The notes beneath the pieces are model-generated. The model searched no databases, was not told the origin of the DNA, and saw only the letters and a list, made by a program, of their open reading frames with translations. Source: Pseudeuparius sepicola (Eukaryota; Arthropoda; Insecta; Coleoptera; Anthribidae). Taken from it: 64,000 nt of DNA. The position numbers and the translations under genes are program-made. The stretch's first letter is position 1. Each line of letters starts with the position of its first letter. Positions 1-61,565 of the stretch are shown here, one piece after another. Where the stretch lies: positions 111,094,035 to 111,158,034 of the forward strand of contig OY987298.1 of the NCBI GenBank assembly GCA_963920635.1, given 5' to 3'.

Positions 1-809
1 AATTTTTTCAGAGAACATGCATATTGTAGAAATATTCATAAAAACTGTAGAAACGTAGAAACATTATCTGAACATTCAGGCACCATTCAGGTGTTCGCCT
101 TTTGAAGGTACTATTTATTTCACGTATTATAAATATTCACAATATCTTGAAAGTATGTTCCACAAATATTTACTGAAGATTTATTTGAAAACTTCAGAAG
201 CATTTTTGAATGTTCTATATATATATCCATTTAATATTCACGTGTTGCATTCAGTTGCAGGGTACGAACCTACGACCATCGATTTACAAGTTCAACGCTC
301 TGACCAACTGAGCCATCGACTTACTTGGAAATATTGCCTAAAAATAGTGTAAGCTAGAATCTCGGTGACGTCTTGATATTCCAGTTTTTGCCACTCGTGA
401 ACATACATAAGTATATCGTGAATGTCTTGTATACAACCATTTGTAAACATTCATAAGATATTTGCTGTATGTATGAATATACTATTTAGCATGTTCCAGC
501 AATATTCCAAAATTATTGCACATTCCTAAGTTAAATGTTCAATTTGTAAATATTTATAGAACCACTAAGTTAGGAATATGTTACACAAGCTATTGTGGAA
601 ATATCCCTTCTTATTCATCTAACATATTAGGATATTTGTATCTGCGGTTAACATATATCTTGGTAATATGCAGTTACTGAACATATTTCGTAAAATACCT
701 ACGTATTGTATTGTAACAATGTTTTATAAATATGGGGGAATATTTTTTGCACATTAGGAACTTATTTTGCATATTCAAAAAATAGGATTAGATGCTATAG
801 GTATATGGG
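1..809 (-). repeat. TIR-like repeat with tRNA-Thr-like module, copy A (truncated by window start)
   Basis: This copy reads on the minus strand. It matches 45107-45909 nearly end to end, in opposite orientation. Shared landmarks include the mid-element tRNA-like stretch, a segment around 660-770, and a terminus resembling CCCATATAGC near 800-809, where this copy carries a small insertion. The other end lies before base 1. Similarity to copy B may continue weakly a few bases past 809, so the inner border is uncertain. No protein-coding capacity is seen. A scrap of the same family's other end lies at 8382-8456. Confidence 0.6.
255..325 (-). other. tRNA-Thr(UGU)-like sequence inside repeat (tRNA-derived, not a tRNA gene)
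   Basis: On the minus strand there is an A-box-like TGGCTCAGTTGG and a B-box-like GGTTCGTACCC. The T-arm is intact, with five pairs around a seven-base loop. The anticodon loop CTTGTAA gives a UGU anticodon on a stem with four of five pairs. The acceptor stem does not pair, and no CCA or T-run terminator follows in the right place. This is typical of a tRNA-derived SINE head rather than a functional tRNA. It lies within the repeat at 1-809, as its sister does in the copy at 45107-45909. Confidence 0.55.
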
Positions 810-12215: not shown

Positions 12216-12224
12216 ACTGAAAAC
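12216..12224 (+). repeat. Left target-site duplication ACTGAAAAC
   Basis: This is an exact 9-bp match, in direct orientation, to 24976-24984, immediately outside the inverted ends of the foldback element. The flanks beyond it are unrelated to each other. Confidence 0.85.
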
Positions 12225-12480
12225 ATGAGCGTGAAAACAGCCACCAGTTTCTGGCCACCGGTTTCTCGCGGGCGCCGTCCCGCGCTATGCCGCCGATAAA
12301 GTCGTGGTCTCTTATCCACCGCACGATTTCCTCATTCTGAGTGCGCAACTGGTGCCAAGAAATAACAAAATAGTTTTATTGCAAAGTATAGACAAAAATT
12401 GTACTGATTATGACCGCCCGAATAACATCTTGTAACAAATAGAAGGGATAAACAAAATAAAATGGCAACTAAAAAAAGGA
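12225..12480 (+). repeat. Left unique terminal inverted repeat of the foldback
   Basis: This 256-bp segment begins ATGAGCGTGAAAACAGCCAC and appears identical to the reverse complement of 24720-24975. The outer ~120 bp are GC-rich with small internal hairpins (the CCACCAGTTTCTGG and GCCACCGG blocks). The inner half is AT-rich. It abuts the satellite at AAGTGGTGG. Confidence 0.85.
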
Positions 12481-15400
12481 AAGTGGTGGCTGGGCTGAAC
12501 TGTACGAGCTGCAATCGATTTTTTTGTCTAAAACTCATCCGCTGTGATCCCTAATGTTCCCCTATAAGTCCCAGAATTTGTTGCTCACGATTAACCCCAA
12601 AATAGCCCCTAATAGAAAAAATACATAAGTGGTGGCTGGGCTGAACTGTAAGAGCTGCGATAGATTTTTTTGTCTATATCTCATCCACTGTGATCCCTAA
12701 TGTTCCCCTATAAGTCCCAGAATTTGTTGCTCACGATTAACCCCAAAACAACCCCTAATAGAAAAAATACATAAGTGGTGGCTGGGCTGAACTGTAAGAG
12801 CTGCGATCGATTTTTTTGTCTAAATCTCATCCACTGTGATCTTTAATGTTCCCCTATAAGTCCCAGAATTTGTTGCTCACGATTAACCCCAAAACAACCC
12901 CTAATAGAAAAAATACATAAGTGGTGGCTGGGCTGAACTGTAAGAGCTGCGATCGATTTTTTTGTCTAAATCTCATCCACTGTGATCCCTAATGTTCCCC
13001 TATAAGTCCCAGAATTTGTTGCTCACGATTAACCCCAAAACAACCCCTAATAGAAAAAATACATAAGTGGTGGCTGGGCTGAACTGTAAGAGCTGCGATC
13101 GATTTTTTTGTCTAAATCTCATCCACTGTGATCCCTAATGTTCCCCTATAAGTCCCAGAATTTGTTGCTCTCGATTAACCCCAAAACAACCCCTAATAGA
13201 AAAAATACATAAGTGGTGGCTGGGCTGAACTGTACGAGCTGCGACCGATTTTTTTGAATAAATCTCATCCACTGTGATCCCTAATGTGCCCCTATAAGTC
13301 CCAGAATTTGTTGCTCTCGATTAACCCCAAAACAGCCCCTAATAGATAAAATACATAAGTGGTGGCTGGGCTGAACTGTACGAGCTGCGATCGATTCTTT
13401 TGAATAAATCTCATCCACTGTGATCCCTAATGTTTCCCTATAAGTCCCAGAATTTGTTGCTCTCGATTAACCCCAAAACAACCCCTAATAGAAAAAATAC
13501 ATAAGTGGTGGCTGGGCTGAACTGTACGAGCTGCGATCGATTTTTTTGTCTAAATCTCATCCACTGTGATCCCTAATGTTCCCCTATAAATCCCAGAATT
13601 TGTTGCTCTCGATTAACCCCAAGACAACCCCTAATAGATAAAATACATAAGTGGTGGCTGGGCTGAACTGTAAGAGCTGCGATCGATTTTTTTGTCTAAA
13701 TCTCATCCACTGTGATCCCTAATGTTCCCCTATAAGTCCCAGAATTTGTTGCTCTCGATTAACCCCAAAACAACCCCTAATAGAAAAAATACATAAGTGG
13801 TGGCTGGGCTGAACTGTACAAGCTGCGATCGATTCTTTTGAATAAATCTCATCCACTGTGATCCCTAATGTTTCCCTATAAGTCCCAGAATTTGTTGCTC
13901 TCGATTAACCCCAAAACAACCCCTAATAGAAAAAATATATAAGTGGTAGCTGGGCTGAACTGTAAGAGCTGCGATCGATTTTTTTGAATAAATCTCATCC
14001 ACTGTGATCCCTAATGTGCCCCTATAAGTCCCAGAATTTGTTGCTCTCGATTAACCCCAAAACAGCCCGTAATAGATAAAATACATAAGTGGTGGCTGGG
14101 CTGAACTGTACGAGCTGCGATCGATTCTTTTGAATAAATCTCATCCACTGTGATCCCTAATGTTTCCCTATAAGTCCCAGAATTTGTTGCTCTCGATTAA
14201 CCCCAAAACAACCCCTAATAGAAAAAATACATAAGTGGTGGCTGGGCTGAACTGTACGAGCTGCGATCGATTTTTTTGTCTAAATCTCATCCACTGTGAT
14301 CCCTAATGTTCCCCTATAAATCCCAGAATTTGTTGCTCTCGATTAACCCCAAGACAACCCCTAATAGATAAAATACATAAGTGGTGGCTGGGCTGAACTG
14401 TAAGAGCTGCGATCGATTTTTTTGTCTAAATCTCATCCACTGTGATCCCTAATGTTCCCCTATAAGTCCCAGAATTTGTTGCTCTCGATTAACCCCAAAA
14501 CAACCCCTAATAGAAAAAATACATAAGTGGTGGCTGGGCTGAACTGTACGAGCTGCGATCGATTTTTTTGTCTAAATCTCATCCACTGTGATCCCTAATG
14601 TTCCCCTATAAATCCCAGAATTTGTTGCTCTCGATTAACCCCAAAACAACCCCTAATAGAAAAAATACATAAGTGGTGGCTGGGCTGAACTGTACGAGCT
14701 GCGACCGATTTTTTTGAATAAATCTCATCCACTGTGATCCCTAATGTGCCCCTATAAGTCCCAGAATTTGTTGCTCTCGATTAACCCCAAAACAACCCCT
14801 AATAGAAAAAATACATAAGTGGTGGCTGGGCTGAACTGTAAGAGCTGCGATCGATTTTTTTGTCTAAATCTCATCCACTGTGATCCCTAATGTTCCCCTA
14901 TAAATCCCAGAATTTGTTGCTCTCGATTAACCCCAAGACAACCCCTAATAGATAAAATACATAAGTGGTGGCTGAGCTGAACTGTAAGAGCTGCGATCGA
15001 TTTTTTTGTCTAAATCTCATCCACTGTGATCCCTAATGTTCCCCTATAAGTCCCAGAATTTGTTGCTCTCGATTAACCCCAAAACAACCCCTAATAGAAA
15101 AAATACATAAGTGGTGGCTGGGCTGAACTGTAAGAGCTGCGATCGATTTTTTTGTCTAAATCTCATCCACTGTGATCCTTAATGTTCCCCTATAAATCCC
15201 AGAATTTGTTGCTCTCGATTAACCCCAAGACAACCCCTAATAGATAAAATACATAAGTGGTGGCTGGGCTGAACTGTAAGAGCTGCGATCGATTTTTTTG
15301 TCTAAATCTCATCCACTGTGATCCCTAATGTTCCCCTATAAGTCCCAGAATTTGTTGCTCTCGATTAACCCCAAAACAACCCCTAATAGAAAAAATACAT

Positions 15401-18020
15401 AAGTGGTGGCTGGGCTGAACTGTACGAGCTGCGATCGATTTTTTTGTCTAAATCTCATCCACTGTGATCCCTAATGTTCCCCTATAAATCCCAGAATTTG
15501 TTGCTCTCGATTAACCCCAAGACAACCCCTAATAGATAAAATACATAAGTGGTGGCTGGGCTGAACTGTAAGAGCTGCGATCGATTTTTTTGTCTAAATC
15601 TCATCCACTGTGATCCCTAATGTTCCCCTATAAGTCCCAGAATTTGTTGCTCTCGATTAACCCCAAAACAACCCCTAATAGAAAAAATACATAAGTGGTG
15701 GCTGGGCTGAACTGTAAGAGCTGCGATCGATTTTTTTGTCTAAATCTCATCCACTGTGATCCCTAATGTTCCCCTATAAGTCCCAGAATTTGTTGCTCTC
15801 GATTAACCCCAAAACAGCCCCTAATAGAGAAAATACATAAGTGGTGGCTGGGCTGAACTGTACGAGCTGCGATCGATTTTTTTGAATAAATCTAATCCAC
15901 TGTGAAGCCTAATGTTCCCCTATAAGTCCCAGAATTTGTTGCTCTCGATTAACCCCAAAACAACCCCTAATAGAAAAAATACATAAGTGGTGGCTGGGCT
16001 GAACTGTACGAGCTGCGATCGATTTTTTTGTCTAAATCTCATCCACTGTGATCCCTAATGTTCCCCTATAAATCCCAGAATTTGTTGCTCTCGATTAACC
16101 CCAAGACAACCCCTAATAGATAAAATACATAAGTGGTGGCTGGGCTGAACTGTAAGAGCTGCGATCGATTTTTTTGTCTAAATCTCATCCACTGTGATCC
16201 CTAATGTTCCCCTATAAATCCCAGAATTTGTTGCTCTCGATTAACCCCAAAACAACCCCTAATAGAAAAAAAAACATAAGTGGTGGCTGGGCTGAACTGT
16301 ACGAGCTGCGATCGATTCTTTTGAATAAATCTCATCCACTGTGATCCCTAATGTCCCCCTATAAATCCCAGAATTTGTTGCTCTCGATTAACCCCAAAAC
16401 AACCCCTAATAGAAAAAATACATAAGTGGTGGCTGGGCTGAACTGTACGAGCTGCGATCGATTTTTTTGAATAAATCTAATCCACTGTGATGCCTAATGT
16501 TCCCCTATAAGTCCCAGAATTTGTTGCTCTCGATTAACCCCAAAACAACCCCTAATAGAAAAAATACATAAGTGGTGGCTGGGCTGAACTGTACGAGCTG
16601 CGATCGATTTTTTTGAATAAATCTAATCCACTGTGATGCCTAATGTTCCCCTATAAGTCCCAGAATTTGTTGCTCTCGATTAACCCCAAAACAGCCCCTA
16701 ATAGAGAAAATACATAAGTGGTGGCTGGGCTGAACTGTACGAGCTGCGATCGATTTTTTTGAATAAATCTAATCCACTGTGAAGCCTAATGTTCCCCTAT
16801 AAGTCCCAGAATTTGTTGCTCTCGATTAACCCCAAAACAACCCCTAATAGAAAAAATACATAAGTGGTGGCTGGGCTGAACTGTACGAGCTGCGATCGAT
16901 TTTTTTGTAAATCTCATCCACTGTGATCCCTAATGTTCCCCTATAAGTCCCAGAATTTGTTGCTCTCGATTAACCCCAAAACAACCCCTAATATAAAAAA
17001 ATACATAAGTGGTGGCTGGGCTGAACTGTAAGAGCTGCGATCGATTTTTTTGTCTAAATCTCATCCACTGTGATCCCTAATGTTCCCCTATAAGTCCCAG
17101 AATTTGTTGCTCTCGATTAACCCCAAAACAACCCCTAATAGAAAAAATACATAAGTGGTGGCTGGGCTGAACTGTAAGAGCTGCGATCGATTTTTTTGTC
17201 TAAATCTCATCCACTGTGATCCCTAATGTTCCCCTATAAGTCCCAGAATTTGTTGCTCACGATTAACCCCAAAACAACCCCTAATAGAAAAAATACATAA
17301 GTGGTGGCTGGGCTGAACTGTAAGAGCTGCGATCGATTTTTTTGTCTAAATCTCATCCACTGTGATCCCTAATGTTCCCCTATAAGTCCCAGAATTTGTT
17401 GCTCTCGATTAACCCCAAAACAACCCCTAATATAAAAAAATACATAAGTGGTGGCTGGGCTGAACTGTACGAGCTGCGATCGATTTTTTTGAATAAATCT
17501 CATCCACTGTGACCCCTAATGTTCCCCTATAAGTCCCAGAATTTGTTGCTCTCGATTAACCCCAAAACAACCCCTAATAGAAAAAATACATAAGTGGTGG
17601 CTGGGCTGAACTGTACGAGCTGCGATCGATTTTTTTGTCTAAATCTCATCCACTGTGATCCCTAATGTTCCCCTATAAGTCCCAGAATTTGTTGCTCTCG
17701 ATTAACCCCAAAACAACCCCTAATAGAAAAAATACATAAGTGGTGGCTGGGCTGAACTGTACGAGCTGCGATCGATTTTTTTGTCTAAATCTCATCCACT
17801 GTGATCCCTAATGTTCCCCTATAAGTCCCAGAATTTGTTGCTCTCGATTAACCCCAAAACAACCCCTAATATAAAAAAATACATAAGTGGTGGCTGGGCT
17901 GAACTGTACGAGCTGCGATCGATTTTTTTGTCTAAATCTCATCCACTGTGATCCCTAATGTTCCCCTATAAATCCCAGAATTTGTTGCTCTCGATTAACC
18001 CCAAAACAACCCCTAATAGA
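12481..18020 (+). repeat. Satellite array, left arm: ~38 tandem copies of a 146-bp unit
   Basis: The unit starts AAGTGGTGGCTGGGCTGAAC and ends AATACAT, with the period measured as 146 bp at successive starts 12481, 12627, 12773 and 12919. Units differ at a few diagnostic sites: GTCTAAATC or GAATAAATC, TAAGAGCTG or TACGAGCTG, AGAAAAAA or AGATAAAA. Blocks of five units recur at 730 bp (for example 13211 against 13941), so a higher-order structure exists. No credible gene is inside. Confidence 0.95.
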
Positions 18021-21000
18021 ACAACAAATTCTGGGACTTATAGGGGAACATTAGGCTTCACAGTGGATTAGATTTATTCAAAAAAATCGATCGCAGCTCG
18101 TACAGTTCAGCCCAGCCACCACTTATGTATTTTTTTATATTAGGGGTTGTTTTGGGGTTAATCGAGAGCAACAAATTCTGGGACTTATAGGGGAACATTA
18201 GGAATCACAGTGGATGAGATTTAGACAAAAAAATCGATCGCAGCTCGTACAGTTCAGCCCAGCCACCACTTATGTATTTTATCTATTAGGGGTTGTCTTG
18301 GGGTTAATCGAGAGCAACAAATTCTGGGATTTATAGGGGAACATTAGGGATCACAGTGGATGAGATTTAGACAAAAAAATCGATCGCAGCTCATACAGTT
18401 CAGCCCAGCCACCACTTATGTATTTTTTCTATTAGGGGTTGTTTTGGGGTTAATCGAGAGCAACAAATTCTGGGACTTATAGGGGAACATTAGGCTTCAC
18501 AGTGGATTCGATTTATTCAAAAAAATCGATCGCAGCTCGTACAGTTCAGCCCAGCCACCACTTATGTATTTTTTTATATTAGGGGTTGTTTTGGGGTTAA
18601 TCGAGAGCAACAAATTCTGGGACTTATAGGGGAACATTAGGCTTCACAGTGGATTAGATTTATTCAAAAAAATCGATCGCAGCTCGTACAGTTCAGCCCA
18701 GCCACCACTTATGTATTTTTTTATATTAGGGGTTGTTTTGGGGTTAATCGAGAGCAACAAATTCTGGGACTTATAGGGGAACATTAGGCTTCACAGTGGA
18801 TTAGATTTATTCAAAAAAATCGATCGCAGCTCGTACAGTTCAGCCCAGCCACCACTTATGTATTTTTTTATATTAGGGGTTGTTTTGGGGTTAATCGAGA
18901 GCAACAAATTCTGGGACTTATAGGGGAACATTAGGGATCACAGTGGATGAGATTTAGACAAAAAAATCGATCGCAGCTCGTACAGTTCAGCCCAGCCACC
19001 ACTTATGTATTTTTTTATATTAGGGGTTGTTTTGGGGTTAATCGAGAGCAACAAATTCTGGGACTTATAGGGGAACATTAGGGATCACAGTGGATGAGAT
19101 TTAGACAAAAAAATCGATCGCAGCTCGTACAGTTCAGCCCAGCCACCACTTATGTATTTTTTCTATTAGGGGTTGTTTTGGGGTTAATCGAGAGCAACAA
19201 ATTCTGGGACTTATAGGGGAACATTAGGGATCACAGTGGATGAGATTTAGACAAAAAATCGATCGCAGCTCTTACAGTTCAGCCCAGCCACCACTTATGT
19301 ATTTTATCTATTAGGGGTTGTCTTGGGGTTAATCGAGAGCAACAAATTCTGGGATTTATAGGGGAACATTAGGGATCACAGTGGATGAGATTTAGACAAA
19401 AAAATCGATCGCAGCTCGTACAGTTCAGCCCAGCCACCACTTATGTATTTTTTCTATTAGGGGTTGTTTTGGGGTTAATCGAGAGCAACAAATTCTGGGA
19501 CTTATAGGGGAACATTAGGGATCACAGTGGATGAGATTTAGACAAAAAAATCGATCGCAGCTCGTACAGTTCAGCCCAGCCACCACTTATGTATTTTTTC
19601 TATTAGGGGTTGTTTTGGGGTTAATCGAGAGCAACAAATTCTGGGACTTATAGGGGAACATTAGGGGTCACAGTGGATGAGATTTATTCAAAAAAATCGA
19701 TCGCAGCTCGTACAGTTCAGCCCAGCCACCACTTATGTATTTTTTTATATTAGGGGTTGTTTTGGGGTTAATCGAGAGCAACAAATTCTGGGACTTATAG
19801 GGGAACATTAGGGATCACAGTGGATGAGATTTAGACAAAAAAATCGATCGCAGCTCTTACAGTTCAGCCCAGCCACCACTTATGTATTTTTTCTATTAGG
19901 GGTTGTTTTGGGGTTAATCGTGAGCAACAAATTCTGGGACTTATAGGGGAACATTAGGGATCACAGTGGATGAGATTTAGACAAAAAAATCGATCGCAGC
20001 TCTTACAGTTCAGCCCAGCCACCACTTATGTATTTTATCTATTAGGGGTTGTCTTGGGGTTAATCGAGAGCAACAAATTCTGGGATTTATAGGGGAACAT
20101 TAGGGATCACAGTGGATGAGATTTAGACAAAAAAATCGATCGCAGCTCGTACAGTTCAGCCCAGCCACCACTTATGTATTTTTTCTATTAGGGGTTGTTT
20201 TGGGGTTAATCGAGAGCAACAAATTCTGGGACTTATAGGGGAACATTAGGGGTCACAGTGGATGAGATTTATTCAAAAAAATCGATCGCAGCTCGTACAG
20301 TTCAGCCCAGCCACCACTTATGTATTTTTTTATATTAGGGGTTGTTTTGGGGTTAATCGAGAGCAACAAATTCTGGGACTTATAGGGGAACATTAGGGAT
20401 CACAGTGGATGAGATTTAGACAAAAAAATCGATCGCAGCTCTTACAGTTCAGCCCAGCCACCACTTATGTATTTTTTCTATTAGGGGTTGTTTTGGGGTT
20501 AATCGTGAGCAACAAATTCTGGGACTTATAGGGGAACATTAGGGATCACAGTGGATGAGATTTAGACAAAAAAATCGATCGCAGCTCTTACAGTTCAGCC
20601 CAGCCACCACTTATGTATTTTTTCTATTAGGGGTTGTCTTGGGGTTAATCGAGAGCAACAAATTCTGGAATTTATAGGGGAACATTAGGGATCACAGTGG
20701 ATGAGATTTAGACAAAAAAATCGATCGCAGCTCGTACAGTTCAGCCCAGCCACCACTTATGTATTTTTTTATATTAGGGGTTGTTTTGGGGTTAATCGAG
20801 AGCAACAAATTCTGGGACTTATAGGGGAACATTAGGCTTCACAGTGGATTCGATTTATTCAAAAAAATCGATCGCAGCTCGTACAGTTCAGCCCAGCCAC
20901 CACTTATGTATTTTATTATATTAGGGGTTGTTTTCGGGTTAATCGAGAGCAACAAATTCTGGGACTTATAGGGGAACATTAGGCTTCACAGTGGATTAGA

Positions 21001-24000
21001 TTTATTCAAAAAAATCGATCGCAGCTCGTACAGTTCAGCCCAGCCACCACTTATGTATTTTTTTATATTAGGGGTTGTTTTGGGGTTAATCGAGAGCAAC
21101 AAATTCTGGGACTTATAGGGGAACATTAGGGATCACAGTGGATGAGATTTATTCAAAAAAATCGATCGCAGCTCGTACAGTTCAGCCCAGCCACCACTTA
21201 TGTATTTTTTTATATTAGGGGTTGTTTTGGGGTTAATCGAGAGCAACAAATTCTGGGACTTATAGGGGAACATTAGGGATCACAGTGGATGAGATTTAGA
21301 CAAAAAAATCGATCGCAGCTCTTACAGTTCAGCCCAGCCACCACTTATGTATTTTTTCTATTAGGGGTTGTTTTGGGGTTAATCGTGAGCAACAAATTCT
21401 GGGACTTATAGGGGAACATTAGGGATCACAGTGGATGAGATTTAGACAAAAAAATCGATCGCAGCTCTTACAGTTCAGCCCAGCCACCACTTATGTATTT
21501 TTTCTATTAGGGGTTGTCTTGGGGTTAATCGAGAGCAACAAATTCTGGAATTTATAGGGGAACATTAGGGATCACAGTGGATGAGATTTAGACAAAAAAA
21601 TCGATCGCAGCTCGTACAGTTCAGCCCAGCCACCACTTATGTATTTTTTCTATTAGGGGTTGTTTTGGGGTTAATCGAGAGCAACAAATTCTGGGACTTA
21701 TAGGGGAACATTAGGCTTCACAGTGGATTCGATTTATTCAAAAAAATCGATCGCAGCTCGTACAGTTCAGCCCAGCCACCACTTATGTATTTTATTATAT
21801 TAGGGGTTGTTTTCGGGTTAATCGAGAGCAACAAATTCTGGGACTTATAGGGGAACATTAGGCTTCACAGTGGATTAGATTTATTCAAAAAAATCGATCG
21901 CAGCTCGTACAGTTCAGCCCAGCCACCACTTATGTATTTTTTTATATTAGGGGTTGTTTTGGGGTTAATCGAGAGCAACAAATTCTGGGACTTATAGGGG
22001 AACATTAGGCTTCACAGTGGATTAGATTTATTCAAAAAAATCGATCGCAGCTCGTACAGTTCAGCCCAGCCACCACTTATGTATTTTTTTATATTAGGGG
22101 TTGTTTTGGGGTTAATCGAGAGCAACAAATTCTGGGACTTATAGGGGAACATTAGGGATCACAGTGGATGAGATTTAGACAAAAAAATCGATCGCAGCTC
22201 GTACAGTTCAGCCCAGCCACCACTTATGTATTTTTTTATATTAGGGGTTGTTTTGGGGTTAATCGAGAGCAACAAATTCTGGGACTTATAGGGGAACATT
22301 AGGGATCACAGTGGATGAGATTTAGACAAAAAAATCGATCGCAGCTCGTACAGTTCAGCCCAGCCACCACTTATGTATTTTTTCTATTAGGGGTTGTTTT
22401 GGGGTTAATCGAGAGCAACAAATTCTGGGACTTATAGGGGAACATTAGGGATCACAGTGGATGAGATTTAGACAAAAAATCGATCGCAGCTCTTACAGTT
22501 CAGCCCAGCCACCACTTATGTATTTTATCTATTAGGGGTTATTTTTATTATCTTGGGGTTAATCGAGAGCAACAAATTCTGGGATTTATAGGGGAACATT
22601 AGGGATCACAGTGGATGAGATTTAGACAAAAAAATCGATCGCAGCTCGTACAGTTCAGCCCAGCCACCACTTATGTATTTTTTCTATTAGGGGTTGTTTT
22701 GGGGTTAATCGAGAGCAACAAATTCTGGGACTTATAGGGGAACATTACGGATCACAGTGGATGAGATTTAGACAAAAAAATCGATCGCAGCTCGTACAGT
22801 TCAGCCCAGCCACCACTTATGTATTTTTTCTATTAGGGGTTGTTTTGGGGTTAATCGAGAGCAACAAATTCTGGGACTTATAGGGGAACATTAGGGGTCA
22901 CAGTGGATGAGATTTATTCAAAAAAATCGATCGCAGCTCGTACAGTTCAGCCCAGCCACCACTTATGTATTTTTTTATATTAGGGGTTGTTTTGGGGTTA
23001 ATCGAGAGCAACAAATTCTGGGACTTATAGGGGAACATTAGGGATCACAGTGGATGAGATTTAGACAAAAAAATCGATCGCAGCTCTTACAGTTCAGCCC
23101 AGCCACCACTTATGTATTTTTTCTATTAGGGGTTGTTTTGGGGTTAATCGTGAGCAACAAATTCTGGGACTTATAGGGGAACATTAGGGATCACAGTGGA
23201 TGAGATTTAGACAAAAAAATCGATCGCAGCTCTTACAGTTCAGCCCAGCCACCACTTATGTATTTTATCTATTAGGGGTTGTCTTGGGGTTAATCGAGAG
23301 CAACAAATTCTGGAATTTATAGGGGAACATTAGGGATCACAGTGGATGAGATTTAGACAAAAAAATCGATCGCAGCTCGTACAGTTCAGCCCAGCCACCA
23401 CTTATGTATTTTTTCTATTAGGGGTTGTTTTGGGGTTAATCGAGAGCAACAAATTCTGGGACTTATAGGGGAACATTAGGGGTCACAGTGGATGAGATTT
23501 ATTCAAAAAAATCGATCGCAGCTCGTACAGTTCAGCACAGCCACCACTTATGTATTTTTTTATATTAGGGGTTGTTTTGGGGTTAATCGAGAGCAACAAA
23601 TTCTGGGACTTATAGGGGAACATTAGGGATCACAGTGGATGAGATTTAGACAAAAAAATCGATCGCAGCTCTTACAGTTCAGCCCAGCCACCACTTATGT
23701 ATTTTTTCTATTAGGGGTTGTTTTGGGGTTAATCGTGAGCAACAAATTCTGGGACTTATAGGGGAACATTAGGGATCACAGTGGATGAGATTTAGACAAA
23801 AAAATCGATCGCAGCTCTTACAGTTCAGCCCAGCCACCACTTATGTATTTTTTCTATTAGGGGTTGTCTTGGGGTTAATCGAGAGCAACAAATTCTGGAA
23901 TTTATAGGGGAACATTAGGGATCACAGTGGATGAGATTTAGACAAAAAAATCGATCGCAGCTCGTACAGTTCAGCCCAGCCACCACTTATGTATTTTTTC

Positions 24001-24719
24001 TATTAGGGGTTGTTTTGGGGTTAATCGAGAGCAACAAATTCTGGGACTTATAGGGGAACATTAGGGGTCACAGTGGATGAGATTTATTCAAAAAAATCGA
24101 TCGCAGCTCGTACAGTTCAGCACAGCCACCACTTATGTATTTTTTTATATTAGGGGTTGTTTTGGGGTTAATCGAGAGCAACAAATTCTGGGACTTATAG
24201 GGGAACATTAGGGATCACAGTGGATGAGATTTAGACAAAAAAATCGATCGCAGCTCTTACAGTTCAGCCCAGCCACCACTTATGTATTTTTTCTATTAGG
24301 GGTTGTTTTGGGGTTAATCGTGAGCAACAAATTCTGGGACTTATAGGGGAACATTAGGGATCACAGTGGATGAGATTTAGACAAAAAAATCGATCGCAGC
24401 TCTTACAGTTCAGCCCAGCCACCACTTATGTATTTTTTCTATTAGGGGTTGTTTTGGGGTTAATCGTGAGCAACAAATTCTGGGACTTATAGGGGAACAT
24501 TAGGGATCACAGTGGATGAGATATAGACAAAAAAATCGATCGCAGCTCTTACAGTTCAGCCCAGCCACCACTTATGTATTTTTTCTATTAGGGGCTGTTT
24601 TGGGGTTAATCGTGAGCAACAAATTCTGGGACTTATAGGGGAACATTAGGGATCACAGCGGATGAGTTTTAGACAAAAAAATCGATTGCAGCTCGTACAG
24701 TTCAGCCCAGCCACCACTT
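18021..24719 (-). repeat. Satellite array, right arm: ~46 copies of the 146-bp unit, inverted
   Basis: This is the same unit in reverse complement. Higher-order blocks recur at about 4 and 6 units, as traced by the rare CTGGAATTTAT variant near 20665, 21541, 23309 and 23893. One unit near 22540 carries a ~12-bp insertion. The outermost unit shares private variants with the outermost left unit. The switch of orientation at about 18020 is abrupt, with no spacer. Confidence 0.95.
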
Positions 24720-24975
24720 TCCTTTTTTTAGTTGCCATTTTATTTTGTTTATCCCTTCTATTTGTTACAAGATGTTATTCGGGCGGTCATAATCAGTACA
24801 ATTTTTGTCTATACTTTGCAATAAAACTATTTTGTTATTTCTTGGCACCAGTTGCGCACTCAGAATGAGGAAATCGTGCGGTGGATAAGAGACCACGACT
24901 TTATCGGCGGCATAGCGCGGGACGGCGCCCGCGAGAAACCGGTGGCCAGAAACTGGTGGCTGTTTTCACGCTCAT
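24720..24975 (-). repeat. Right unique terminal inverted repeat of the foldback
   Basis: This is the reverse complement of 12225-12480, with no difference seen by eye. Such identity implies recent insertion or ongoing arm-to-arm gene conversion. Confidence 0.85.
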
Positions 24976-24984
24976 ACTGAAAAC
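24976..24984 (+). repeat. Right target-site duplication ACTGAAAAC
   Basis: This is the second copy of the 9-bp direct repeat. Being direct rather than inverted, it cannot be part of the palindrome and marks an insertion event. Confidence 0.85.
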
Positions 24985-31931: not shown

Positions 31932-31992
31932 GTATAAAAATTAACACTGAACATAATTACTGATTTCACAAAACTTACCTCTACAATTTCAG

Positions 31993-32088
31993 GACTTAAA
32001 TGAGTTGTTGGCTTGCAATACATACCTGCTATCTAACAAATTGACTGCAGCTGATGTTCTTTTGTATTGTTTCCTGTACAGTATTATG
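31993..32088 (+). CDS. AIMP3: AIMP3/EEF1E1-like, penultimate exon
   Basis: This exon is 96 nt, phase 0 at both ends, between TTTCAG and GTGGGT. It encodes DLNELLACNTYLLSNKLTAA followed by DVLLYCFLYSIM. The family pattern is DLNxYL, then (F/L)TxADxLLYYxLH, a conserved GST-C helix pair that includes the N-capping/hydrophobic-staple Thr-x-x-Asp. Joining it to its neighbours keeps the reading frame throughout. The intron that follows is unusual in having no stop and a length divisible by three, so retention would add 21 residues. Confidence 0.85.
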
Positions 32089-32151
32089 GTGGGTATTCTT
32101 ATTTATAGACTTCAATGGAGACATACTGGACTAAACATTTGTTTGTTCCAG
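32089..32151 (+). other. 63-nt stop-free, frame-preserving intron in AIMP3
   Basis: It begins GTGGGT, ends TTCCAG, and is 63 nt (21 codons) with no in-frame stop, so exons 31993-32088 and 32152-32304 form one continuous open frame through it. Homology to AIMP3 resumes exactly at both splice borders, and the 21 intervening residues (VGILIYRLQWRH...) have no counterpart, which argues that it is an intron. Retention would place an insertion inside the GST-C helical bundle. Confidence 0.7.
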
Positions 32152-32304
32152 GAATCTTTGGGGCCGCTAGAAAAGGAACGTTATTTGAATGTATCCCGAT
32201 GGTTCGACAACATCCAGCAAGATTCCTCTCTAAGGCAGTCTAATAAGCTAATTGATTTTAGCACCAATTATTTGTCAAGTTTAGCTCCAGCTAGGCGAAT
32301 TTAG
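32152..32304 (+). CDS. AIMP3: AIMP3/EEF1E1-like, terminal coding exon
   Basis: This encodes ESLGPLEKERYLNVSRWFDN and IQQDSSLRQSNKLIDFSTNY, ending APARRI and a TAG stop at 32302-32304. The KE(R/K)YLNVSRWF-xx-IQ block is the signature of AIMP3/EEF1E1 and is almost unchanged from vertebrates, so identification is secure. No AATAAA is seen in the next few hundred bases; AT-rich variants such as AATATA occur near 32317. The gene points away from the inverted P-like element at 32884. Confidence 0.88.
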   Translation, partial: ESLGPLEKERYLNVSRWFDNIQQDSSLRQSNKLIDFSTNYLSSLAPARRI

Positions 32305-38403: not shown

Positions 38404-39316
38404 TTATTCGAACTTGAAACTTTTTGTGGATGATTCTTTTTTCGAGGACTTTGTCATTGTTGTAGTTTTCTTTTCAATTATTTGTTGTGTCACTGATTTT
38501 TTCAACATTCTTTGCTCTAGCGTATCGTCGTCTCTTAAAACTGGAGGTTCATTGGTGTACTCAACATTGGAAGAGTATGAAGAATGATACTGATCGTCTC
38601 CACCGCCATTCTTAAAGGAACTGAAATCCCTGAGTGGTGGAGGTGGGTTGAAGTTCCCAAAATTTCCGTCTCTATCGCCTGAAGTTGTGTAATATTTATC
38701 ACTGCTCGTCGAATAGCTAACCTGTGGAGCAGATTGATAACTTTCGTATCTATATGAATCTGTTTTGTAACCTGTTGGAGTCTTAAATGTGTTCGTTGTG
38801 TATTCTGAGCTCGAATATCCGTCGGAAGCTGGGTGGTATTGACTTTGCAATGTTGTAGTACCTAATGGCGATGAAGGATATTGGGGCTTTGAAGAAGAAT
38901 AATCAAAAGCTCTTTCTTGTGTTGAACCAAAGGGCTTAGGAGAGGTATTTGAAACTCCATAACTCGGTGAAGGACTAGATACACCATAACCTCTACCTAG
39001 AGTAGCATTAGGAGTACTCGATGAGTAAGGTTGATAATTTGGAGACAAATTTTTAGGTTCCGCGTAATGAGAAGATGTGGGAGAAAATCTTGGTGCATTT
39101 TGTGAAAATGAGTTGTAGCTGGGTTGGTTATAGCTGTTAGTAATACCATAGGTGGCAGTATCTAAGTCGTTAATTTGTGGCTGCAGTAAATTCTTGGTGC
39201 GTTCAAGGGAGTTAATTTTCTCAGGGCTCTCCAGGTGACTGTAACTGTCCGTGTAGAACCGACTGGGGGATGACTGGTTGTGTGCTGAATGAGCTGAATC
39301 GTAGCCTTGCGCATAG
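38404..39316 (-). CDS. rhea: Talin, terminal coding exon: insect-type C-terminal tail
   Basis: It begins after TTTTCCAG at 39316. The first base C completes the CG left by the exon at 47780, giving Arg, and the frame runs 303 residues to TAA at 38404-38406. Vertebrate talins stop right after the dimerisation helix; insect talins carry an extension, which this exon would encode. The extension is Ser/Tyr/Pro/Asn-rich with no helices obvious: repeated SPSPSYGVS-, YSSSEYT- and SYxxYQSAPQ-like stretches, then a NFNPPPPLRDFSSF Pro-rich patch. The last ~45 residues are charged (DDDTLEQRMLKKSVTQQIIE followed by KKTTTMTKSSKK and SFKFE). It is probably disordered and could bind SH3, WW or kinase partners; that is inference. 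The identification as talin rests on exact phase joining to unmistakable talin exons upstream. Confidence 0.85.
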
Positions 39317-39339
39317 CTGGAAAAGTAAATTAGACACAT

Positions 39340-39625
39340 CAGGTATTAAAATAAGAACATTCGCCTATAATGTGAGAATATAATTTTTTTTTCACGAAAA
39401 TGAACAAATATCCAAATTTTAATGCAATGTATTTTTGATGGTAAAAAATGTCCCACCCTACTACATTTTCCAGAATAAGAATTGAAACGATTTCTAGCCT
39501 GCTCTGATGAACGCTTCTTGATAAGTAGAGAAATTCCAAATTTTCTATTTTGAATTTTCATTGGTTCAACGGTTTTCTTCAGATTTGGGACAGATTTTTA
39601 TGCAGTATTGAATGTCAAATCAGTA
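39340..39625. other. Talin intron start region
   Basis: This is the acceptor-proximal end of the ~8.5-kb talin intron (39317-47779). Short minus open frames here lie in intron sequence and look spurious. Confidence 0.5.
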
Positions 39626-40296: not shown

Positions 40297-41061
40297 TACA
40301 GTTAATTTAGTATGTCATCCAGAAAGTATTTTTTACAAAACTTAAAAGATCTTGACAACTAATAATTGCTGATTAAAAAAGTAGAATGTAATTTTGTTAA
40401 ATATTTCATTGTTTTCTTTTTGCAACCACAACCTTTTTTGTGTTATTAACTTTTTCATTTTTTACAGCAGTTTTAGATGGTTTCCTATTACTGAGAATAA
40501 TTATAATTACTTACCTTGACATCAAATTCTATTTTCCTACTAAGACAGTTTCACTCTGTACATGCAAAAAATAAATATATGTTAGTAGGTAAAGGAAAAT
40601 AAAATAAATATAAGACAACAGGAACAATAGACAAAACACCACAAACGACATGCATTTCGAAAATATTTATCAGGAAATTAACAAAATGGAATAATAATGA
40701 ACCACATGTTTCATAATACATTAAACCGTTGAGTGAGGGAATAATAAGAGGCGCTACCTCCATGTATCTTAGCGAGTTAATTATTATTGTTAGTGTTAAG
40801 ATGAAGGGTAAGGATTGTCTCTCACCACAGAAAAACCGTTTTTCTGTGCTCTCACCATATGCTTGTACAGAGTGTCCCAATCGTTCCTTGGGACACTCCT
40901 GCCTCCTAGCGTTGAGTGACGCTAGAAGGCATGCAGAAAACAATATTTTTTATATTTTTATGGGGCACCATTCTTTTTGTTTAAATAAGGCAGAAAATGG
41001 GAGAGAATAAGTGGCGAGATGGTAAAAAGGGCGACAAAAAATAAGTAAGAAGGCGTTTTTC
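40297..41061. other. Unassigned intron DNA with a repeat-like segment
   Basis: The segment around 40722-40760 (CCGTTGAGTGAGGGAATAATAAGAGGCGC) is similar, inverted, to 47185-47222, so a dispersed repeat is involved. The 130-codon minus frame at 40551-40943 has no recognisable family and spans this repeat, so I do not call it a gene. Confidence 0.35.
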
Positions 41062-41151
41062 TTACACCACCAGATTTTTACCAAAAGTCACTTGCAGCAA
41101 GGGAAACAACCTCTCATAGCAGATTTGCAAAAACCAGGGGCGTAGGTACTA

Positions 41152-41426
41152 CGAGACCAGAATCATATCATTTGGCCCAGCCAATACTTGTTACATTATT
41201 TAATTTAGTGTCCTAAGTATATATATCTAGTTTTCTAATTATAATCTTAGTAAAAATTGTTTATAAAAATGTCTCAAATTACAATAATAATAGTTTGATT
41301 TGATAGTTTTCTTTTGTTTTTATTCAAAAGAGGAATTTCTAGAGGATTAAATGGGGTAATTAAATAATAGTGTCTAAAATAAAAAATAAAATATTGGCTG
41401 GGCCAAATGATATGATTCTGGTCTTG
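41152..41426. mobile_element. 275-bp MITE in satellite, TA target (copy 1)
   Basis: Inverted ends of ~35 bp (CGAGACCAGAATCATATCAT then TTGGCCCAGCCAATA) are flanked by TA. Neighbouring satellite units show the unoccupied site GGGGCGTACTATGTTC, which confirms the borders. Confidence 0.75.
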
Positions 41427-42810
41427 TATGTTCTAAAATTCGTTAAATTTTTTTCGAATTTATTTTTGGTGGAAGGCGATTTTGTTACACCACCAGATTT
41501 TTAATAAAAGTCTTTTGTAGCAAGAAAAACAACCTGTCATAGCAATTTAAAAAAAATCAGGGGCGTACTATATTCTATAAATCGTTAATTTTTTTTCTAA
41601 TTTATTTTTGATGGAAAGCGATTTTGTTACCCCACCAGTTTTTTACCAAAAGACTTTTGTTGCAAGAGAAACAACCTGTCGTAGCAGATTTGAAAAAATC
41701 AGGGGCGTACTATATTCTAAAATTTGTTAATTTTTTTCGAATTTATTTTTGGTGGAAGGTGATTTTGTTACACCACCAGATTTTTACCAAGTCTTTTGTG
41801 GCAAGAAAACCCCCCGCCGTAGCATATTTGAAAAATGTCAGGGGCGTACTATGGGCTAAAATTTTCTCGATTTTTTTTTCGATGGCGATTTTGTTACACC
41901 ACCAGATTTTTACCAAAAATCACTTGCAGCAAGAAAAACAACCTGTCATACAAATTAGAAAAAAATCAGGGGAGAACTATGTTCTAAAATTCGTTAATTT
42001 TTTTCGACTTTATTTTTGGTGGAAGGCGATTTTTTTACACCACCAGATTTTTACCAAAAGTCTTTCGTGGCAAGAAAACCCCCCCGCCGTAGCAGATTTG
42101 AAAAATGTCAGGGGCGTACTATGGGCTAGAATTTTCTCGATTTTTTTATGTTCGAAGGCGATTTTGTTATACCACCAGATTTTTACCAAAAGTCACTTGC
42201 AGCAAGAGAAACAACCTGTCATAGCAGATTTGAAAAAAATCAGGGGCGTACTATGCTCTAAAATTCGTTAATTTATTTTGAATTTATTTTTGGTGGTAGG
42301 CGACTTAGTTACACCACCAAATTTTAACCAAAAGTCTTTTGTGGCAAGAAAACCCCCCGCCGTAGCAGATTTGAAAAATGTCAGGGGCGTACTATGGGCT
42401 AAAATTTTCTCAATTTTTTTATGTTTGAAAGCGATTTTGTTATACCACCAGATTTTTACCAAAAGTGACTTGCAGCAAGAGAAACAACCTGTCATAGCAG
42501 ATTTGAAAAAAAAATCAGGGGAGTACTATGTTCTAAAATTCGTTAAATTATTTTCGAATTTATTTTGGTGGAAGGCGATTTTGTTCCAGATTTTTACCAA
42601 AAGTCTTTTGCAGCAAGAGAAACAACCTGTCATAGAAGATTTCAAAAAAATCAGGGGCGCACTATGGGCTAAAATTCGTTAAATTTTTTTCGAATTTATT
42701 TTTGGTGAAAGGCAATTTTGTTACACCACCAGATTTTTACCAAAAGTCACTTGCAGCAAGGGAAACAACCTCTCATAGCAGATTTGCAAAAACCAGGGGC
42801 GTAGGTACTA

Positions 42811-43085
42811 CGAGACCAGAATCATATCATTTGGCCCAGCCAATACTTGTTACATTATTTAATTTAGTGTCCTAAGTATATATATCTAGTTTTCTAATTA
42901 TAATCTTAGTAAAAATTGTTTATAAAAATGTCTCAAATTACAATAATAATAGTTTGATTTGATAGTTTTCTTTTGTTTTTATTCAAAAGAGGAATTTCTA
43001 GAGGATTAAATGGGGTAATTAAATAATAGTGTCTAAAATAAAAAATAAAATATTGGCTGGGCCAAATGATATGATTCTGGTCTTG
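42811..43085. mobile_element. 275-bp MITE in satellite (copy 2, by segmental duplication)
   Basis: This is identical in sequence and in satellite context to 41152-41426, exactly 1,659 bp further on. It was therefore copied with the array, not independently inserted. Confidence 0.8.
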
Positions 43086-44520
43086 TATGTTCTAAAATTC
43101 GTTAAATTTTTTTCGAATTTATTTTTGGTGGAAGGCGATTTTGTTACACCACCAGATTTTTAATAAAAGTCTTTTGTAGCAAGAAAAACAACCTGTCATA
43201 GCAATTTAAAAAAAATCAGGGGCGTACTATATTCTATAAATCGTTAATTTTTTTTCTAATTTATTTTTGATGGAAAGCGATTTTGTTACCCCACCAGTTT
43301 TTTACCAAAAGACTTTTGTTGCAAGAGAAACAACCTGTCGTAGCAGATTTGAAAAAATCAGGGGCGTACTATATTCTAAAATTTGTTAATTTTTTTCGAA
43401 TTTATTTTTGGTGGAAGGTGATTTTGTTACACCACCAGATTTTTACCAAGTCTTTTGTGGCAAGAAAACCCCCCGCCGTAGCATATTTGAAAAATGTCAG
43501 GGGCGTACTATGGGCTAAAATTTTCTCGATTTTTTTTTCGATGGCGATTTTGTTACACCACCAGATTTTTACCAAAAATCACTTGCAGCAAGAAAAACAA
43601 CCTGTCATACAAATTAGAAAAAAATCAGGGGAGAACTATGTTCTAAAATTCGTTAATTTTTTTCGACTTTATTTTTGGTGGAAGGCGATTTTTTTACACC
43701 ACCAGATTTTTACCAAAAGTCTTTCGTGGCAAGAAAACCCCCCCGCCGTAGCAGATTTGAAAAATGTCAGGGGCGTACTATGGGCTAGAATTTTCTCGAT
43801 TTTTTTATGTTCGAAGGCGATTTTGTTATACCACCAGATTTTTACCAAAAGTCACTTGCAGCAAGAGAAACAACCTGTCATAGCAGATTTGAAAAAAATC
43901 AGGGGCGTACTATGCTCTAAAATTCGTTAATTTATTTTGAATTTATTTTTGGTGGTAGGCGACTTAGTTACACCACCAAATTTTAACCAAAAGTCTTTTG
44001 TGGCAAGAAAACCCCCCACCGTAGCAGATTTGAAAAATGTCAGGGGCGTACTATGGGCTAAAATTTTCTCAATTTTTTTATGTTTGAAAGCGATTTTGTT
44101 ATACCACCAGATTTTTACCAAAAGTGACTTGCAGCAAGAGAAACAACCTGTCATAGCAGATTTGAAAAAAAAATCAGGGGAGTACTATGTTCTAAAATTC
44201 GTTAAATTATTTTCGAATTTATTTTGGTGGAAGGCGATTTTGTTCCAGATTTTTACCAAAAGTCTTTTGCAGCAAGAGAAACAACCTGTCATAGAAGATT
44301 TCAAAAAAATCAGGGGCGCACTATGGGCTAAAATTCGTTAAATTTTTTTCGAATTTATTTTTGGTGAAAGGCAATTTTGTTACACCACCAGTTTTTTACC
44401 AAAAGTCTTTTGTGGCAAGAAAACTCCTCGCCGTAGCAGATTTGAAAAATGTCTGAGGCGTACTATGGGCTAAAATTTTCTCGAATTTTTTTATGTTTGA
44501 AGGCGATTTTGTTACACCAC

Positions 44521-45046
44521 CAGATTTAGAACATAGTACGCCCCTGATTTTTTTTCAAATCTGCTATGACAGGTTGTTTCTATTGCTATAAAAGACTTTT
44601 GGTAAAAATTTGGTGGTGTAACAAAATCGCCGTCTACCAAAAATAAATTCGAAAAAAATTGACGAATTTTAGAACATAGTTCGCCTCTGATTTTTTTCAA
44701 ATCTGCTATGACAGGATGTTTCTCTTGCTGCAAGTGATTTTTGGTAAAAATCTGGTGGTGTAACAAAATCGCCTTCCACCAAAAAGAAATTCGAAAAAAT
44801 TTAACGAATTTTAGAATATAGTAAGCCCCTGATTTTTTTTAAATCTGCTATGATCTGCTACAAAAGACTTTTGGTAAAAATCTGGTGGCGTAACAAAATC
44901 GCCTTCCACCAAAAATAAGTTCCAAACATTTTTTTTACGAATTTTAGAATATAGTACGCCACTGATTTTTTTCAAATCTGCTATGACATGTTATTTCTCT
45001 TGCTGCAAGTGATTTTTGGCAAAAATCTGGTGATGTAACAAAATTG
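44521..45046 (-). repeat. Second satellite array, inverted end segment
   Basis: Orientation flips abruptly near 44525 (CCAGATTTA|GAACATAGTACGCCC). About four units of the same satellite then follow in reverse complement, with starts near 44591, 44732, 44868 and 45010. This head-to-head arrangement echoes the foldback at 12225-24975 on a smaller scale. Confidence 0.85.
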
Positions 45047-45106
45047 AGCGAAGTCTCTAAAAACATCTCAAATAATTTAAAGAATTTGAATTTTTGCTTG
45101 CTACTT

Positions 45107-45909
45107 CCCATATAGCATTTAATATTTTTTGAATATGCAAAATAAGTTCCTAATGTGCAAAAAATATTCCCCATATTTATAAAACATTGTTACAATATTT
45201 TACGAAATATGTTCAGTAACTCCATATACCCAAGATATTTGTTAATCGCAGATACAAATATAATATGTTAGATGAATGTACAAATGATGTATATGTTTGT
45301 TTTGAATAAGAAGGGATATTTCCACAATATCTTGTGTAACATATTCCTAACTTAGTGGTTCCATAAATATTTACAAATTGAACATTTAACTTAAGTACAT
45401 TATAGGCACGTTCACCTTAGGAACGTGCAATTTGGAATATTGCTGGAACATGCTAAATAATATATTCATACAGCAAATATGTTATGAATGTTCACAAACA
45501 GTACTTATTCCTACTCTTGTGATGTCACAGAGATTCTAGCTTACACTATTTTTAGATAATGTTTCCAAGTACCTCGATGGCTCAGTTGGTTAGAGCGTCA
45601 ACTTGTAAATCGATGGTCGTAGGTTCGAACCCAGGAACTGGTGTTGGCGGATTTTTTTTTATTTTATAATGTACACGTGAATATTAAATGGATATAATAG
45701 AACATTCATTGAATATTTGTGGAACGTGCATTCAATATATTTGTGAATGTTTATAATACGTGAAATAGTACCTTCAAAAGGCGAACACCTGAATGTTGCC
45801 TGAATGTTCAGATAATGTTTCTACAGTTTTTATGAATATTCCTACAATATGCATATTCTCTGAAAAAACATTATCAGAATATTCCGCCAATGTGATTTTG
45901 CTATGTGGG
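45107..45909 (+). repeat. TIR-like repeat with tRNA-Thr-like module, copy B (full length)
   Basis: This ~803-bp AT-rich element has ends CCCATATAGCA and the complement of CCCACATAGCA. Immediately outside are TTGCTTGCTACTT (45094-45106) and TTGTTTGCTATTA (45910-45922), a possible 13-bp imperfect direct repeat (10 of 13). Copy A at 1-809 is the inverted relative. Weak similarity to copy A may extend slightly left of 45107, so the left border is provisional. Confidence 0.6.
45573..45642 (+). other. tRNA-Thr(UGU)-like sequence, copy B
   Basis: The A box TGGCTCAGTTGG and a perfect B-box GGTTCGAACCC are present, with CTTGTAA at the anticodon loop. One base of the anticodon stem is missing and the acceptor stem does not pair, so it is not a functional tRNA. 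The conserved Pol III boxes suggest that transcription of the element matters. Confidence 0.55.
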
Positions 45910-46565: not shown

Positions 46566-46946
46566 TTATCTTCTATTAGATAGTGTGGAAGATAAATAAT
46601 ATAAAATATTGCAACTTGGAAAAACATGCAAATTCATTGTTTTCGTATTCACTTCCGCGTCCTTTACTCCAATATTAATGATTAATAAAATATGAACCGC
46701 ATTATTCCGTAACAATTTCCTTTTTCCACTTTTGTAGATGTATTTTTCTTCAAAGTGGTTTTCACACACTACCCTTCCTTTTAGGTCTTTATTATCCATG
46801 TCTAATAAAAGCACATTTCCGCAATTTAATACCCATTCTTTCACACGCAATTTGTTTGCAACAGGAAAACGAATGCAAACAAATTTTCCATTCTTAATAT
46901 GCATATTACAAATAATGTAGGAGCATATATTTTTTGCTTGTTGCAT
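46566..46946 (-). CDS. THAP-domain protein or N-terminal exon (intact C2CH)
   Basis: Starting at the ATG at 46946, this 126-residue frame carries a THAP zinc finger. It has C-S-Y-I-I-C near the N-terminus, then KFVCIRFPVANKLRVKEWVL with the conserved F-P, NCGNVLLLDMDNKDLKGRVV, and CENHF giving the C-x2-H pair. KRKLLRNNAVHIL follows, equivalent to the usual AVPxLF end. All four zinc ligands are present, though the usual His of HxFP is Ile-Arg. Residues after position ~85 match nothing, so the true transcript may splice. It lies in the talin intron on the same strand. It could be a P-element/THAP transposase N-terminus or a host THAP gene; no catalytic domain follows nearby. Confidence 0.55.
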   Translation of the reverse strand: MQQAKNICSYIICNMHIKNGKFVCIRFPVANKLRVKEWVLNCGNVLLLDMDNKDLKGRVVCENHFEEKYIYKSGKRKLLRNNAVHILLIINIGVKDAEVNTKTMNLHVFPSCNILYYLSSTLSNRR

Positions 46947-46979
46947 CGCAGGGGAATCACTAAAACGTATCCTGAATAA

Positions 46980-47230
46980 ATAAAACAACTAGCCGGACTA
47001 GCCGCTCCACGCTAGACATCGAAGTGAATCCAAAGCCGGCGAAATGGGAAGCTCTGCGGTCCGCGCTATGCGCTCGATGTACACGTGAACACGACGAGAG
47101 GAGAACTGAAGAATCTCATCGCCGGCGACTGAGGCGCCATCTACACCACAATTTTCATTTGGGGCTCGAAATCGCCGCATTAAGAGGCGCCTCTTATTAT
47201 TCCTTTACTCAATTATTAAACATAGGATTA
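46980..47230. repeat. GC-richer dispersed repeat segment
   Basis: The segment contains GGCGCCTCTTATTATTCCTT near 47185, which is similar in reverse orientation to 40722-40760. It precedes the THAP ORF on the minus strand, so it could hold its promoter. Open frames on both strands are probably non-coding. Confidence 0.35.
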
Positions 47231-53056: not shown

Positions 53057-53105
53057 AGACCAATGCTGTTGACGCCTATCTCACCAAACTACACAAGTTA
53101 AAGTT

Positions 53106-53593
53106 AACTAGTCCGCCATCTTGGGTGTTCCGCCATGTTGGATTTAGAATGACGTCACACATATAATCATGCATTGTCATCCAAATTAAACGTGTGTACA
53201 AAATTTTAGCTCGATCGGTTGAAATTTAACTAGTCCGCCATCTTGAGTGTTCCGCCATGTTGGATTTAGAATGACGTCACACATATAATCATGCATTGTC
53301 ATCCAAATTAAACGTGTGTACAAAATTTCAGCTCGATCGGTTGAAATTTAACTAGTCCGCCATCTTGAGTGTTCCGCCATGTTGGATTTAGAATGACGTC
53401 ACACATATAATCATGCATTGTCATCCAAATTAAACGTGTGTACAAAATTTCAGCTCGATCGGTTGAAATTTAACTAGTCCGCCATCTTGGGTGATCCGCC
53501 ATGTTGGATTTAGAATGACGTCACACATATAATCATGCATTGTCATCCAAATTAAACGTGTGTACAAAATTTCAGCTCGATCGGTTGAAGATA
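53106..53593. repeat. Tandem array, four copies of a 122-bp unit
   Basis: Unit starts AACTAGTCCGCCATCTTG at 53106, 53228, 53350 and 53472. Each unit contains ATGACGTCACACATATAATC and ends AGCTCGATCGGTTGAAATTT. The copies differ by only a few bases. Similar CCGCCATCTTG/GATCGGTT motifs are familiar from insect Helitron-type repeats, which fits the neighbouring helicase scrap. Confidence 0.9.
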
Positions 53594-54885: not shown

Positions 54886-54889
54886 TTAA

Positions 54890-55230
54890 GGCTCAATGTA
54901 CAGCACGTATGTGGTGATTCAAAATTTTGACCCATAAAATGGCTTTTTTCGATCTGTAGCGAGTAACACGCATAAATTAAAACTTTTGGTCAATACAAAT
55001 TTTAATCTAAGTAATTACTCACATTTTGAGACAAAAATTATAAATGCTAATAACGGCCATTGTGATAAATATTTTTAAATAATTTTTGTCTCAAAATGTG
55101 AGTAATTACTTGGATTAAAATTTGTATTGACCAAAAGTTTTAATTTATGCGTGTTACTCGCTACAGATCGAAAAAAGCCATTTTATGGGTCAAAATTTTG
55201 AATCACCACGCACGTGCTGTATATTGAGTC
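54890..55230. mobile_element. 341-bp foldback element flanked by TTAA
   Basis: The inverted arms of ~150 bp begin GGCTCAATGTACAGCACGT and GACTCAATATACAGCACGT (other strand). They are flanked by TTAA at 54886-54889 and 55231-55234, pointing to piggyBac or Kolobok mobilisation. The arms are highly similar and the loop is ~30-35 bp. No coding sequence is present. Confidence 0.78.
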
Positions 55231-55234
55231 TTAA

Positions 55235-61563: not shown

Positions 61564-61565
61564 TA

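Follow-up and report, generated by a model that had tools for sequence, protein, structure and literature searches.

The locus analysed here raises the question of whether a long block of tandem 146-bp repeats in a beetle genome is a satellite array or the body of one giant mobile element. The initial annotation of the window (the whole stretch of DNA analysed, 64 kb with 35% G+C) had favoured the mobile element, describing a 9-bp direct duplication immediately outside both ends and two apparently identical 256-bp terminal repeats enclosing two arrays in opposite orientation, of about 38 and 46 copies. As shown in Table 1, each of these features was recovered: the duplication, ACTGAAAAC, is exact, and the terminal repeats match at 256 of 256 positions when one of them is inverted. 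Together they delimit an element of 12,751 bp (12225-24975), in which the 146-bp units fill 12,239 bp.

Table 1. Structural features of the element, with positions in the 64-kb window
Feature	Position	Strand	Evidence
Left target-site duplication, ACTGAAAAC, 9 bp	12216..12224	+	Exact copy at 24976-24984, directly outside the inverted ends
Left terminal inverted repeat (256 bp) with a G+C-rich outer half	12225..12480	+	Matches 24720-24975, once reverse-complemented, at all 256 positions
Left arm, tandem array of 38 units of 146 bp, the innermost shortened to 137 bp	12481..18021	+	TRF, unit cutting, alignment
Right arm, tandem array of 46 units of 146 bp running the opposite way, the innermost shortened to 103 bp; block of ~22 units present twice	18022..24719	-	TRF, unit cutting, lag-22 periodicity, self-match
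Right terminal inverted repeat, 256 bp	24720..24975	-	Inverted match to the left end
Right target-site duplication, ACTGAAAAC, 9 bp	24976..24984	+	Exact copy of 12216-12224

The boundaries of the element were not freely chosen, since they are fixed by the inverted ends, and a 9-bp match at such borders is rare: it was seen in 59 of 2,000,000 random boundary pairs drawn from the rest of the window, while alternative estimates gave a chance of 8e-6 (from base composition) or 2.4e-5 (from 9-mer counts). On the + strand of the window ACTGAAAAC occurs at the two borders of the element only, with one distant copy on the reverse strand at 63145. The inverted identity runs beyond the terminal inverted repeats (TIRs) as far as element position 378, the first mismatch being at position 379, and the inverted comparison of the first 800 positions contains 4 differences. 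Outside the element, the flanks (about 1 kb on each side) share short local matches only, with raw scores, taken with no shuffle control, of 29 in direct and 32 in inverted orientation; because of this, the symmetry is confined to the element. No further copy of the element was found within the 64-kb window, and exact searches with the unit pattern and the end pattern gave 0 matches in viral_contigs and 0 in genome_contigs (viral and prokaryotic DNA).

The 256-bp end is G+C-rich in its outer half (0.53, 0.72, 0.56 and 0.53 in successive 32-bp steps, then 0.22-0.38). Its outer 130 bp showed no special hairpin (z = -1.03; 31 of 200 shuffles folded equally well). No significant likeness to the 146-bp unit was seen either, the best local score of 20 being reached by 250 of 1,000 dinucleotide shuffles. 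Since end and unit have no significant stretch in common, the idea that the unit arose from the end domain, in the way of the Tetris element discussed below, is not supported and was rejected.

With a 146-bp period, TRF counted 37.9 units for 12481-18021 and 45.7 for 18018-24719, and cutting at a shared 25-base anchor gave 38 + 46 units, 84 in all as assembled. The two orientations join at about 18021/18022 with no spacer, inside the overlap of a few bases between the two TRF rows. Apart from the innermost pair (137 and 103 bp) all units measure 145-155 bp, which leaves no room for foreign sequence between them. The units are very similar to one another: a full unit departs from the consensus in a mean of 3.57 alignment columns, and the 82 full units represent 41 different types, 6 of which are common to both arms. 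As a consequence of this similarity, alignment of the two halves has little power to fix their register. The left half and the inverted right half are 96.4% identical across the entire 5.8 kb, and a register shifted by two units aligns nearly equally (96.37% over 5,562 columns).

With units numbered inward from the outermost pair, L01 and R01, two variant positions co-occur in L01 and R01 only among the 82 full units, and a match between arms at least as good as that of the outer three units (a number chosen after seeing the data) arose in 1 of 20,000 random orders. Descent of the two arms from a single terminal repeat would be expected to give such mirroring of the outer units and the co-occurring variants in L01 and R01. 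Towards the centre most of this mirror order has disappeared. The run L33-L36 is identical to R33-R36, although it can also be matched to R11-R14 with no more than one difference in each unit. The idea that the arms form a fully mirrored palindrome was rejected: the mirroring is partial, and the mirror distance averages 5.68, only slightly less than the 5.87 averaged between arms. In the right arm the two copies of the 3.2-kb block, each of about 22 units, match at 98.3% over 3,480 columns, and the mean distance at lag 22 was 2.35, when the 1st percentile of the lowest-lag value in shuffled orders was 4.18. In the left arm no block periodicity was detected, its lowest lag mean being 4.75 and the average of shuffled orders 4.58. 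Clustering of units by arm was weak, the observed value being reached in 237 of 5,000 label permutations. This pattern fits a history in which both arms came from one terminal repeat and then turned over largely separately, with some sharing of variants between arms.

Inverted tandem arrays of such length are hard to assemble, and the assembly may have duplicated the block that the right arm contains twice, which raises the concern that the locus is an artefact, either a fold-back chimera or an array of the wrong size. A fold-back chimera, however, would mirror the flanks as well, and the short local matches found there argue against it; moreover, the arms are unequal both in the number of their units and in their order, and the 9-bp duplication is present at both ends of the element. 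We consider an artefact of assembly improbable.

A satellite array is a further alternative in a beetle. Satellite arrays with 'macro-dyad symmetry' occur in Tribolium pericentromeres, and in T. madens the two main satellites are described as lying mostly in two opposed subarrays of a few to several tens of kb (PMC13081366), which the arrays described here resemble. On such a reading the 9-bp match would be a coincidence. Both outer ends of the array, however, are capped by a 256-bp repeat that is not satellite and are flanked by the duplication, and the window also holds gene sequence, such as an exon resembling EEF1E1 at 31957-32304; in addition, the terms 'terminal inverted', 'foldback', 'MITE' and 'Mutator' are absent from the main text of the Tribolium study (PMC13081366). 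An ordinary satellite of this kind is, in our judgement, scarcely credible as an explanation. Since transposon-like ends and a target duplication bound the array, the view of the initial annotation that this is not a centromere-type satellite is supported at this locus.

The element appears to encode nothing of its own. It contains no open reading frame of at least 110 aa, and three tandem consensus units have a longest open stretch of 44 codons. The end has an open stretch of 43 codons that reads outward (12226-12354), for which the protein search gave no candidate among proteins 0.55 to 1.75 times the query length. Because no coding function was seen in the element, a transposase from elsewhere must act if the element moves.

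Taken together, the locus very probably arose by one insertion of a foldback DNA transposon, an element with long TIRs, that is non-coding and non-autonomous, whatever its superfamily. The proposal of one giant mobile element is thus well supported for this single copy by the target duplication and the perfect TIRs. These two characters speak for a DNA transposon of the TIR order, and its long TIRs made of tandem repeats in unequal number (38 vs 46) place it in the foldback class. Drosophila FB elements have composite TIRs with tandem repeats, whose number is unequal at the two ends, and the FB-like label given earlier stands as far as architecture is concerned; membership of the Mutator superfamily is suggested by two characters, the 9-bp duplication and the long ends.

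MULEs are described as having TIRs typically >100 bp long and duplications of 8-10 bp (PMC5225508), and the element falls within these limits with ends of at least 256 bp and a duplication of 9 bp. The P superfamily element Galileo is described with duplications of 7 bp, rarely 8 bp, and the consensus GTANTAC (PMC4168063), to which the 9-bp ACTGAAAAC does not conform. Since the MULE end and duplication sizes fit, as does the nematode element Tm1, and since Galileo duplications are mostly 7 bp, Mutator is the likeliest superfamily, and we regard it as the probable source of the moving transposase. Taken by itself, a 9-bp duplication is compatible with another superfamily. The mover of this foldback transposon could instead have been a transposase from outside Mutator (P/Galileo-like, hAT or Merlin); this would be a sub-case of the same foldback insertion, and we think it rather unlikely. 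hAT duplications are 8 bp long, which speaks against hAT as the mover, and those of Merlin are 8-9 bp, a length that would fit. On the side of a non-Mutator mover, the window contains an open frame with a THAP domain at 46566-46988 (Pfam E 6e-9), perhaps a transposon or host remnant, although nothing ties it to the element. In favour of a P-like mover, Galileo is foldback-like and yet belongs to the P superfamily (PMC4168063, PMC3573991); against it, the Galileo duplications described in D. willistoni are 7 bp, or 8 bp in three copies (PMC4168063), vs 9 bp here.

Under the preferred reading, a foldback element probably mobilised by Mutator, a transposase acting in trans, and probably belonging to the MULE/Phantom/FB kind, would recognise the identical 256-bp ends, and the element, presumably moving by cut and paste, would have been joined to a 9-bp staggered cut so that ACTGAAAAC was duplicated. 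The 146-bp arrays would have grown or been renewed by unequal exchange and block duplication, the processes to which we attribute the turnover of the arms, and by exchange between arms; we infer the place of this growth, as we do the identity of the transposase. One Galileo subfamily has demonstrated transposase-binding sites within its repeats, according to a study that calls the same idea untested for Foldback and Phantom (PMC3688188). By analogy, extra transposase-binding sites may be a benefit of the arms.

The design itself is already known. Tetris, of Drosophila virilis and D. americana, follows the same plan on a smaller scale, and the TCAST elements are a beetle case of satellite within TIRs; the present element stands out by being so large, by having no middle domain and by resembling the 'macro-dyad' satellites of Tribolium. 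As described (PMC4079207), Tetris is a non-autonomous foldback element with no conserved ORF, whose TIRs consist of an outer flanking domain followed by tandem units of about 220 bp, a layout comparable to that found here. Three of its complete copies have duplications of 8-9 bp, and rearranged copies have 9-10 bp, against 9 bp here; its units also build satellite-like arrays of up to 66 copies (PMC4079207). Tetris was put in Mutator from the length of its duplications and earlier suggestions about foldback elements (PMC4079207). In contrast with our element, its TIRs reach 1,735 bp (the halves here measure about 5.8 and 7.0 kb), it has a middle and sometimes an inner domain, neither of which is present here, and its end and unit have in common a 37-bp stretch at about 80% (PMC4079207), with no significant match here. 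Its hosts also belong to a different insect order from the beetle studied here.

Among the matches listed from the open-licence PMC literature, the TCAST transposon-like elements of Tribolium castaneum were the only beetle foldback elements of such design. They are described as non-autonomous, with satellite inside their TIRs and target duplications, as here; they differ in measuring up to 1,181 bp, in carrying one satellite monomer plus one inverted segment, and in having TIRs of about 269 bp, an ACT duplication and a link to mariner/Tc1 (PMC3411249). Tm1, from root-knot nematodes, has 9-bp duplications and composite TIRs with tandem repeats, and in Tm1 and Drosophila FB alike the number of tandem repeats is reported as unequal between the two ends (PMC3169594). 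The units of Tm1, however, are 13-15 bp long vs 146 bp here, asymmetric 7-bp motifs stand beyond its inverted repeat whereas our ends are symmetric from the first base, and a Phantom-like transposase is known for it (PMC3169594), when none was seen for our element. Galileo of Drosophila has long TIRs too, of which some contain tandem repeats (of about 210 bp in D. mojavensis and about 140 bp in one D. willistoni copy), and is distinguished by its P superfamily membership, mostly 7-bp duplications and far fewer units per TIR, according to the descriptions available (PMC3573991, PMC4168063, PMC3688188). Finally, the macro-dyad arrays of Tribolium madens and its relatives are, like the element, two opposed blocks of one beetle satellite, kb to tens of kb long, but they are described as abundant, probably (peri)centromeric satellites in megabase regions, in passages that mention neither transposon ends nor target duplications (PMC13081366).

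Elsewhere in the window, a second inverted satellite occupies 41050-45044, with units of about 142 bp running one way to about 44525 and then the opposite way, and containing a 1.74-kb stretch twice at 99% identity (41050-42791 and 42709-44449). Both of its blocks begin at equal unit phase, near 41057 and 45043, with a match of 89 columns, and this hints at a sibling element. No convincing target duplication was found near it, the longest direct repeats being A/T runs that lie some 105 and 77 bp outside the blocks, and for this reason we did not accept it as a sibling transposon, though it may be one. Nested in the 142-bp array, and duplicated along with it, is a small TA-flanked element (41150-41428, copy at about 42809-43087) with inverted ends of about 59 bp that are 85% alike. 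Two palindromic elements lie at 60640-61567 and 54886-55234; one has TA adjoining CAGTGCCCG ends and is presumably mariner/Tc1-like, and the other has TTAA at both ends. At 53100-53589 a 122-bp unit forms four head-to-tail copies with 98% matches. An inverted pair, 73% identical, is found at 3-824 and 45092-45868; the first copy contains an Rfam tRNA match (257-315, minus strand), where ARAGORN reported none, and the pair is perhaps a dispersed repeat with a tRNA-like part.

As for genes, a 313-aa open reading frame (38404-39345) had 25 protein matches, Callosobruchus analis being the one named relative. The EEF1E1-like exon, which we take to be AIMP3 by its alternative name, had 9 protein matches with identities of 40-52%, of which 7 were named: Molorchus, Sitophilus, Henosepilachna, Photinus, Cylas (two) and Phaedon, all of them beetle genera. 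These coding traces point to a beetle as host.

What may such an element contribute to satellite evolution? According to PMC13081366, opposed satellite blocks ('macro-dyad symmetries') are documented only in Tribolium, where 79 of 124 satellites are reported to overlap partially with annotated transposons, the annotations concerned being always predominantly low-complexity, simple-repeat, satellite or unclassified. The authors of the Tetris study had already proposed that element as a source of satellites (PMC4079207). It is conceivable, though we hold it to be quite unlikely, that foldback transposons of the present type are both birthplace and carrier of the beetle 'macro-dyad' satellites, the opposed 146-bp arms seeding arrays whose ends decay to leave opposed-block satellites. 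If this were true, the locus would be an intermediate that still has both ends and its target duplication. The locus itself is an apparently intact insertion with a nearly wholly satellite-like body, and it indicates that intact transposon ends can enclose opposed blocks with tens of satellite-like units. Family members with differing unit numbers, if they exist, would let the stages between transposon arm and satellite be put in order, and would provide a test of a foldback origin for opposed satellite blocks in beetles.
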